In this document: positions 44,601 through 46,460 of the stretch, piece after piece
Layout: the number at the start of each line of letters is the position of its first letter
How positions within the stretch are numbered: position 1 is the first letter of the stretch
Assembly (NCBI GenBank): GCA_030746775.1
Contig: JASLLZ010000006.1
Location: 1-64,000, forward strand
Reading direction: 5' to 3'
Origin: Rhodospirillales bacterium
GTDB taxonomy: Bacteria > Pseudomonadota > Alphaproteobacteria > Rhodospirillales > JASLLZ01
Length of the DNA stretch: 64,000 nt
The notes under the pieces: generated by a model
The model's input: only the letters and a program-made list of their open reading frames with translations
Databases searched by the model: none
What the model was told of the DNA's origin: nothing
Made by a program: the position numbers and the translations under genes

Positions 44601-44682
44601 CGGCTTCTCCTCCCACCGCTTCCTCGCCCCGGCGGATGTGTACCAGCCCGGCCGGGCCGGGGCAATTGCCGGCGACGGGCGA

Positions 44683-44786
44683 CCCCCCACCCTGGCCCTC
44701 CCCCACAAGGGGGGAGGGAAGTTCTTGGCGATCGCCGAAATATGCGCCCCCTCCCCCTTTCGACGGGGGAGGGCTGGGGTGGGGGC
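44683..44786. repeat. CCCTCCCCC-type imperfect inverted repeat
   Basis: Two arms of about 35 bases are imperfect complements of each other: one with ccaccctggccctccccc, the other with gggggagggctggggtggg. Each arm is also a small hairpin. It belongs to a class of C-rich intergenic repeats common in high-GC proteobacteria. No gene is seen from 44601 to 45212. Confidence 0.7.
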
Positions 44787-44872
44787 GATGACCGCAACGC
44801 AATTGAATTCGCATGGATGATGCCGTGGACCGCGAAAAGGCTTGCCATCGGCGGCCCCGCGCTGTCGTATTC

Positions 44873-45194
44873 TAGTGTTCTGAATCGGACTGATAGTACC
44901 CATACGATCGCTTTTCCCGTTCGCTCGGCAGGAAGGGAGGCGCGGGCGATGCCTTTGCATCGGCAAGCCTTCCTGACGTACCGAGGGGGCGGGAAAAGCG
45001 ACCCGCTGGGCGGTCTTCCGAGCCCACCGGGGCCATGGGGTGCCCCCGTATTTGAATTGCGGGGGGCGCCCCCGCGACCCCCGGCGTCGGTGCGCGGCGC
45101 TTGTGATGGTTCCCCATCACGGCGCACCACGCGCCTAGCCGGATGAACTCGGAAGGCCGTCGTATGGGTACTATCAGTTCGATTCAGAGCACTA
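44873..45194. mobile_element. MITE-like element with 33-bp terminal inverted repeats
   Basis: Terminal inverted repeats at 44875-44907 and 45160-45192 pair at 31 of 33 positions and are flanked by TA on both sides, the mark of IS630/Tc1-type transposition. The interior has no open frame of note but contains nested palindromes, including cgcttttcccg with cgggaaaagcg and tgtgatgg with ccatcacg. It ends 18 bases before an MFS gene and may carry that gene's promoter. No matching transposase lies in the window. Confidence 0.75.
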
Positions 45195-45212
45195 ACCAGG
45201 AGGAAACGGCGG

Positions 45213-46460
45213 ATGATCGACGGGACGGGGCAGGGGGCGCGCCGGGAAGTGCGCCGCGAGACCAAGGTCATCGGCCTGGTGGGCGGCGCTTTTCTGGTCC
45301 ATCATTTTCTGCAACTCGCCCTGCCGCCCCTGTTTCCCCTGCTCAAGATCGAGTTCCAGGTCAGCTACGCGGCCCTCGGCGGCATCATGACGGCCTTCAG
45401 CCTGGCCTCGGCGGCGGCTCAGATTCCGGTCGGTTTTCTGGTCGACCGGGTCGGTGCCCGGTGGGTTCTGATGGGCGGCCTGGGTCTGGCCTCGGCGTCC
45501 CTGGCGCTGATCGCCGCCACCTCGTCCTACACCGCCTTCCTGGCCCTGGCCGTGGTCATGGGCGCCGCCAATTCGGCCTGCACGCCGGCCGATTACGCCA
45601 TCCTCTCAAGTTCCATCGCCCGGGCCCGCGCCGGCCGTGCCTTCAGCCTGCATACCTTCGCCGGCCAGGTCGGCTTTGTCCTTGCCCCCGCCACCATGGG
45701 CCTCTTGGCGGCCTGGGGCGGATGGCGCATGGCGGTCGTCGCCGCCGGCGTTCTGGGCCTGCTCGCCGTCGCCGCCCTCATCGTCGGGCGCGGGCTCCTC
45801 GTCGAGGGCACGCCGCATACGGCCTCGACCGAGGCGCCGCCGGCGGACAGGCGCGAGCCCGTGCCCGAGAAAGGAGGCTTCGCGCTCCTCCTGTCGCCGC
45901 CCATTCTGTTGTTCCTTTTGTTCTTCATCCTCAACTCGTCGGCCTCGACCGGCATCAGGACCTTTTCGGTCACCGCCATGATGGCGTTTCACGAAAGCTC
46001 GCTCACGGTTGCCAACGCGGCGCTGACGGGCTACTTCGTCGGCACCTCGACGGGGGTTCTGGCGGGCGGCTGGCTGGCCGACCGGGTGCGGCGCTACGAT
46101 CTTCCCATGGCCTGCGTGGTTTTGCCCGGCGTCGCCGTCCTGGCCCTGCTCGGCGGTTACGTCCTGCCCGGCGTCGGCCTGATCGCGGCGGTCGTTTTCT
46201 TCGGCCTTACCCAGGGCGTTATGCGGCCCTTGCGCGACGTCTTGATCATGCTGGCGACGCCGCCGGGTTCGTTCGGCAAGGTGCGCGCCTTCGTCAACAT
46301 GGGCGGCCACGTCGGCAGCGCCGTCATCCCGGTGTTCCTCGGTTGGCTCATCGACCAGGGCGAGCCGCAATGGGTGTTCTGGACCATCGCCGCGGGCATC
46401 CTGCTCGCCATCGGGACGATCTTCATCGTCCACCCGATGGTCAAAATCGAGCGCCGATGA
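45213..46460 (+). CDS. MFS transporter
   Basis: The 415-residue protein has twelve predicted hydrophobic helices in two halves. The loop between helices 2 and 3 reads GFLVDRVGARWVLM, the usual MFS motif A. A hydrophilic central loop (about residues 195-220) separates the halves. AGGAGG upstream of the ATG, immediately after the MITE-like element, supports the start. It resembles general drug or metabolite permeases, and the substrate cannot be deduced. Confidence 0.82.
   Translation: MIDGTGQGARREVRRETKVIGLVGGAFLVHHFLQLALPPLFPLLKIEFQVSYAALGGIMTAFSLASAAAQIPVGFLVDRVGARWVLMGGLGLASASLALIAATSSYTAFLALAVVMGAANSACTPADYAILSSSIARARAGRAFSLHTFAGQVGFVLAPATMGLLAAWGGWRMAVVAAGVLGLLAVAALIVGRGLLVEGTPHTASTEAPPADRREPVPEKGGFALLLSPPILLFLLFFILNSSASTGIRTFSVTAMMAFHESSLTVANAALTGYFVGTSTGVLAGGWLADRVRRYDLPMACVVLPGVAVLALLGGYVLPGVGLIAAVVFFGLTQGVMRPLRDVLIMLATPPGSFGKVRAFVNMGGHVGSAVIPVFLGWLIDQGEPQWVFWTIAAGILLAIGTIFIVHPMVKIERR

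Follow-up and report, generated by a model that had tools for sequence, protein, structure and literature searches.

A probable IS630-type MITE family with a folded core and variable paired arms in Rhodospirillales

A strongly palindromic stretch of DNA immediately upstream of an MFS transporter gene in a Rhodospirillales genome raises the questions of whether it is a mobile element, which transposase group would have moved it, and whether it now plays a part in the expression of its neighbor. The window (the whole stretch analyzed, 64,000 nucleotides of contig JASLLZ010000006.1) contains this feature at 44873-45194, and an initial annotation made from the sequence alone had described it as a MITE-like element that might provide the promoter or 5' leader of the MFS gene. 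The best explanation of the observations as a whole is that it represents one copy of a gene-less, non-autonomous MITE family of the IS630/Tc1-mariner type, to which a probability of roughly 0.92 can be assigned.

The anatomical figures given in that annotation are sound (Table 1). The two terminal inverted repeats match at 31 of 33 positions, or at 33 of 35 when the terminal TA bounding each end is counted with its arm (44873-44907 against 45160-45194), and the element measures 318 bp without the TAs and 322 bp with both. The open reading frame list shows no plausible gene inside it, and the mechanical frames that cross it pass through its palindromes. The nested hairpins noted earlier are reflected in an RNA fold of the element of -225 kcal/mol (z = -16.2), a stability reached by none of 100 shuffles, and the gap between the end of the element at 45194 and the ATG of the MFS gene at 45213 is indeed 18 bases. 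The window copy consists of 268 bp plus a nested 54-bp palindrome, and its right flank reads TA-A, not TA-G. A search of the window against Rfam returned no match above the gathering score, only spurious sub-threshold microRNA matches at an upstream repeat outside the element. A separate GC-rich palindromic repeat (CCCTCCCCCACAAGGGGGGAGGG...) lies upstream of the element, at window positions 44682-44786; an exact 23-mer from it occurs once in the window, and the sister species aligns poorly over this stretch.

Table 1. Features of the window copy and its surroundings (window positions).
Feature	Position	Strand	Remarks
Left terminal arm (TIR) with terminal TA	44873..44907	+	Matches the right arm, read as reverse complement, at 33/35; arm types covary across copies
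Core hairpin P2	44908..45001	+	Covarying helices 1-3
Small central hairpin P3 (CCCGCTGGG)	45002..45010	+	Helix 4, 98% of cells paired
Core hairpin P4	45011..45159	+	Inverted diverged copy of P2, split by nested insertion; covarying helices 5-7
Nested 54-bp GC-rich palindromic repeat	45031..45084 (boundaries +/- ~4 bp)	+	L049 lacks it at this site
Right terminal arm (TIR) with terminal TA	45160..45194	+	
43-bp upstream flank, possible promoter	44830..44872	+	86% kept in sister species
Shine-Dalgarno-like AGGAGG of the MFS gene	45198..45203	+	Read directly; just outside the element
MFS transporter gene, 415 aa	45213..46460	+	PF07690, 5e-48

The MITE-like reading is borne out by further copies in this genome and in relatives, as well as by empty sites with a single TA at sister copies. 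The check for other copies that the initial annotation had proposed returned full ones: the same genome holds, as lower bounds because several copies stop at contig ends, four further near-full-length relatives (at C143, C145, C18, and C137) and one diverged full copy (C2), in addition to fragments. An exact search of genome contigs with the arm sequence gave no match, nor did a plasmid search. Matches were present in 8 of the 40 genomes searched, the window genome included; across the order, another arm type was present in 7 of 297 genomes, and a pattern scan placed relatives in uncultured Rhodospirillales MAGs. Complete copies without a nested insertion have a fixed length of 266-269 bp, and members are short (268-322 bp) and lack a transposase gene, as is typical of an IS630-type MITE. 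In draft genomes, copies often lie at contig ends (L115, L116, L119, L124, L125, L129, L131, and L132); element copies probably break assemblies and are undercounted. The window genome is itself a draft assembly with an estimated contamination of 6.6%. No evident earlier description of the family, which occurs across marine Rhodospirillales, was found in the open-licence literature searched, and it appears to be undescribed.

Reduced and distant forms were also observed. Genome G015 contains shrunken forms of 139 and 165 bp (L138 822-960 and L140 713-877), together with a 51-bp palindrome made of the element arms without the core (L154 847-897). In a more distant relative (L256 1448-1711), TACCAAGGCTCGATGATAGG arms enclose a core that matches weakly, while a partial relative (L257 1470-1641) has kept a single hairpin. 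There is also a second palindromic repeat family, about 50-60 bp long, GC-rich, and with a ATTTGAAT-like loop; members of this small family stand alone (L010, L013, L014, and L015) and also lie within a number of copies of the larger element, at varying places. One such case is the 54 bp at about 45031-45084 in the window copy, which resemble the solitary palindromes at those other loci of the genome and are missing from the same element in the sister species (L049). The palindrome is a later nested insertion into the window copy.

Evidence for insertion came from a search in which the joined flanks of eleven copies were compared with the window genome and its one congener. Three filled/empty pairs (L005/L191, L007/L195, and L101/L196) yielded clean empty sites with a single TA, and at these sister copies (L005, L007, and L101) the single TA is duplicated on insertion. 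Other filled/empty pairs were consistent but diverged at the join, including L002/L193 and L103/L192, in which neither a stop-codon site nor a clean empty site is demonstrable. The initial annotation had staked its reading on other copies or an empty site; both were found, the empty sites at sister copies, whereas no empty allele of the window copy emerged, the one congener searched being occupied. The target context is strongly skewed, with C before the TA in 45 of 51 copies, G after it in 42, and both in 37. This CTAG context of the MITE copies matches the preference reported for IS630, which a 1991 title by Tenzen and Ohtsubo, cited in PMC2170065, reportedly names.

Many insertions coincide with the ends of genes. 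Among approximately 33 flanking genes whose 3' ends face a copy, 19 stop exactly at the terminal TAG of the element, a count obtained with a simple ORF heuristic and approximate gene calls. When filled and empty alleles were compared, the protein ended at the same residue in five of six cases (L007, L101, L102, L104, and L005); the stop codon of the empty allele was TAA or TAG, and the TAG of the filled allele was supplied by the element. Since the first base of the element behind the TA is G, a TAA or TAG stop codon hit at its TA is rebuilt as TAG, leaving the gene intact. The window copy, which sits between divergent genes, is not of this stop-codon kind.

An IS630-type transposase gene with the same ends had been suggested as the means of identifying the parent. 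This expectation held in part: IS630 ends similar to two arm types were found, including in the window genome, whereas the arm type of the window copy showed weak similarity. IS630 transposons of the order lie in a CTAG context, with a C in front of each end in all 17 copies inspected, and their ends resemble several of the arm types. In genome G026, an intact IS630 family transposase frame of 380 aa (L068; NF033545 at 6e-82) is bounded by TAGTGTCCTGCTTCTGAAGTTT and TAGTGTCCTGATCGCGAAGTTT; MITE copies in that genome have closely similar arms, TAGTGTCCTGGATCAGAAGTTC. A second end type (TAGTGGAT..AATCTAAC..) is found on further IS630 elements of the order, which measure about 1.14-1.19 kb. The window genome's IS630 at C150 has TAGTGGATAGTCGCTAACGAAAGATTCCCATACGG, and the arm of L007 is TAGTGGATAGAATCTAACATATGGTACCCATACGA; beyond TAGTG, these agree at 21 of 30 positions, and TAGTGTCCTGGATCAGAAGTT arms agree with the IS630 ends of L068 and L162 at 19-20 of 30. 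Both matches are significant when judged against shuffled arms, for which the per-arm maxima were mostly 16-18 and in one case 19, whereas the arm type of the window copy and of its sister-species counterpart reaches 14-17 of 30 (per-arm p 0.013-0.11). Among 13 element-bearing genomes, the latter arm type was found in no IS630 transposon, and its occurrences were confined to MITE copies from this genus. Because of this weak match and restricted occurrence, the parent is assigned at group level only, with the ends pointing to IS630 and not to an individual progenitor of the window copy. A first family search gave four IS630 loci, two of which (L069 and L070) had no detectable ends, L069 starting near a contig end. 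The IS630 of the window genome (L071 375-1964, at C150) seems to have been rearranged, since part of its transposase frame is duplicated.

The arms differ from copy to copy yet stay matched within each copy, having been kept so through many double changes. Within the genus, L049 and L005 have cores that are 93% identical and arms that are 55% identical; copies with cores about 93% identical may have arms only about 50% identical, and several arm types occur per genome. Genome G348, from another alphaproteobacterial order, contains four matches with the same core, and the one examined (L255 1467-1738), which aligns to the full family model with an E-value of 8.7e-36, has wholly different arms, with TTAGTGCCCACTTTCACGGATAG on the right side. 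It seems that arms are exchanged as matched pairs, probably through recombination between copies or with IS630 ends.

The core, by comparison, folds as a cloverleaf with extensive covariation. An alignment of 34 copies has 102 predicted pairs, of which 72 contain double changes. When the arms are left out, two-sided changes occur in 44 of 67 core pairs, compared with a shuffle mean of 17.7 (0 of 500 shuffles reach 44), and sliding the pairing partners abolishes pairing. Each half-core is a diverged version of the other in inverted orientation (their alignment scores 30, whereas shuffles reached at most 18.5), while loops, bulges, and total length have been retained over large divergence. Wobble changes were counted as GU against AC events on a tree of 70 distinct copies. 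In P2 they lean to GU on the top strand (82:37), whereas in P4 the bottom strand is favored (21:48); those in the arms are unbiased (42:45), and transitions at unpaired sites are strand-symmetric. Such a pattern is compatible with folding, as RNA, of whichever hairpin is encountered first from either side, although it is only suggestive because the bias is concentrated in a few columns (sign tests by column gave p 0.04-0.08 for P2 and p 0.02 for P4).

Copies, TA duplication, CTAG preference, IS630-like arms, stop-codon insertions, fixed length, and core covariation, all read at the level of sequence, are consistent with a mechanism in which an IS630 transposase supplied in trans would most likely recognize the ~30-bp arms and excise the element. 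Reinsertion would occur at a TA, preferably within CTAG, with duplication of the TA. The element may be viewed as an inverted pair of related half-elements, each consisting of an arm and a hairpin, that flank a small central hairpin, and the folded core may be retained because it is functional as RNA or single-stranded DNA. The window copy would have been inserted before the split of the two congeneric species and would have acquired the nested palindrome afterward; it now probably makes up the region upstream of the MFS gene, or its 5' leader. A bolder reading, tentative and on balance unlikely, is that the structured core is a modular passenger that swaps its paired arms for those of resident IS630-type transposases, the first-transcribed hairpin being an RNA element that can be entered from either side, often right after a stop codon. 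The L255 core, with its different arms in another order, fits this reading.

Two alternatives would deny the element its MITE status. A REP/RAYT-type or other non-IS630 palindromic repeat would likewise be strongly palindromic, intergenic, and multi-copy, but TA duplication at empty sites, the CTAG context, and IS630-like ends speak against it, and 268 bp far exceeds the size of a REP; this explanation is rejected as very improbable. A chance palindrome might be entertained for a GC-rich intergenic region such as this one, but the failure of every shuffle to fold as well, together with the copies and empty sites elsewhere, reduces its likelihood to a negligible level, and it is rejected too.

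Two further alternatives concern the conservation of the core, not MITE status, and are compatible with an IS630-type MITE family. The window copy could have been co-opted as a 5' leader or regulatory RNA, with selection on this role, and not mobility, explaining its present conservation. In the sister species the element (L049) occupies the same site in the same orientation and is identical at 252 of 268 positions (94%), whereas identity between the MFS genes is 83% over their whole length and falls to 71% at third positions of codons; the copy may therefore now serve as a leader of that gene. The element also abuts the Shine-Dalgarno sequence, its core helices covary, and the one-strand wobble preference of the core hairpins is absent from the arms, with unpaired changes being symmetric. 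However, the covariation belongs to the whole family, mostly at unrelated genes, the wobble bias is limited to few columns, and the 54-bp core insertion is tolerated in the window species. The 43 bp before the element are 86% kept in the sister species (91% in a local match), but a scan of this flank found no consensus sigma-70-like promoter site. Moreover, the core of the window copy is 97% identical to that of its paralogue L002, and either selection or gene conversion from other copies could explain the 94% identity. Co-option is conceivable, if somewhat doubtful. Comparable doubt attaches to the proposal that the core palindromes stay matched through a mutational process, namely template switching or conversion between quasi-palindrome arms, and not through selection on the fold. 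Template switching and conversion are known for imperfect palindromes, and the arms, for which recognition by the transposase should be the sole requirement, also stay matched via many double changes. Nevertheless, loops, bulges, and total length are preserved over large divergence, and a wobble strand bias that affects the core hairpins and spares the arms would not be expected from such a process.

The IS630-type MITE family can be compared with several described systems. According to sections of PMC2229807, RUP of Streptococcus pneumoniae is gene-less, inserted at TA, and proposed to be mobilized by an IS630 transposase via shared ends. The present element is similarly gene-less, with TA insertion and IS630-like ends, a likeness by anatomy only. 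In contrast, RUP is 107 bp long, with no structure or function signature reported beyond its TIRs in the same sections (PMC2229807), whereas the element here has 268 bp, a cloverleaf core whose helices covary, and several arm types within a genome. Correia/NEMIS elements of Neisseria, as outlined there, have TIRs, TA ends, target duplication, both filled and empty sites, long stem-loop transcripts with proposed RNase III cleavage, and a longer variant containing an internal sequence of 50 bp (PMC2229807). Compared by anatomy only, their 107 or 155 bp differ from 268 bp, and these sections were not found to describe arm exchange on a constant core (PMC2229807). CIR elements of Caulobacter and Brucella are intergenic repeats of alphaproteobacteria in which a linker joins two hairpin arms, and they have a conserved RNA model; by the description given, they measure ~110 bp and have no end-to-end pairing or known mobility (PMC2229807). 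For ISY100, the TA target and its duplication have been shown in vitro (PMC2170065). The element here resembles IS630/ISY100 transposons in TA target and duplication and IS630 in CTAG preference, but those transposons encode a transposase and it does not.

Exactly rebuilt stop codons provide a simple, low-harm route for a mobile element, and insertion at stop codons puts the element hairpin at the 3' end of transcripts. Bacterial MITEs are usually recognized by conserved ends surrounding a dispensable middle. This family presents the reverse, with a middle conserved across genera and ends that change in matched pairs between IS630-like types, making it a natural system for studying how gene-less elements switch transposases and whether a folded middle has an RNA function.
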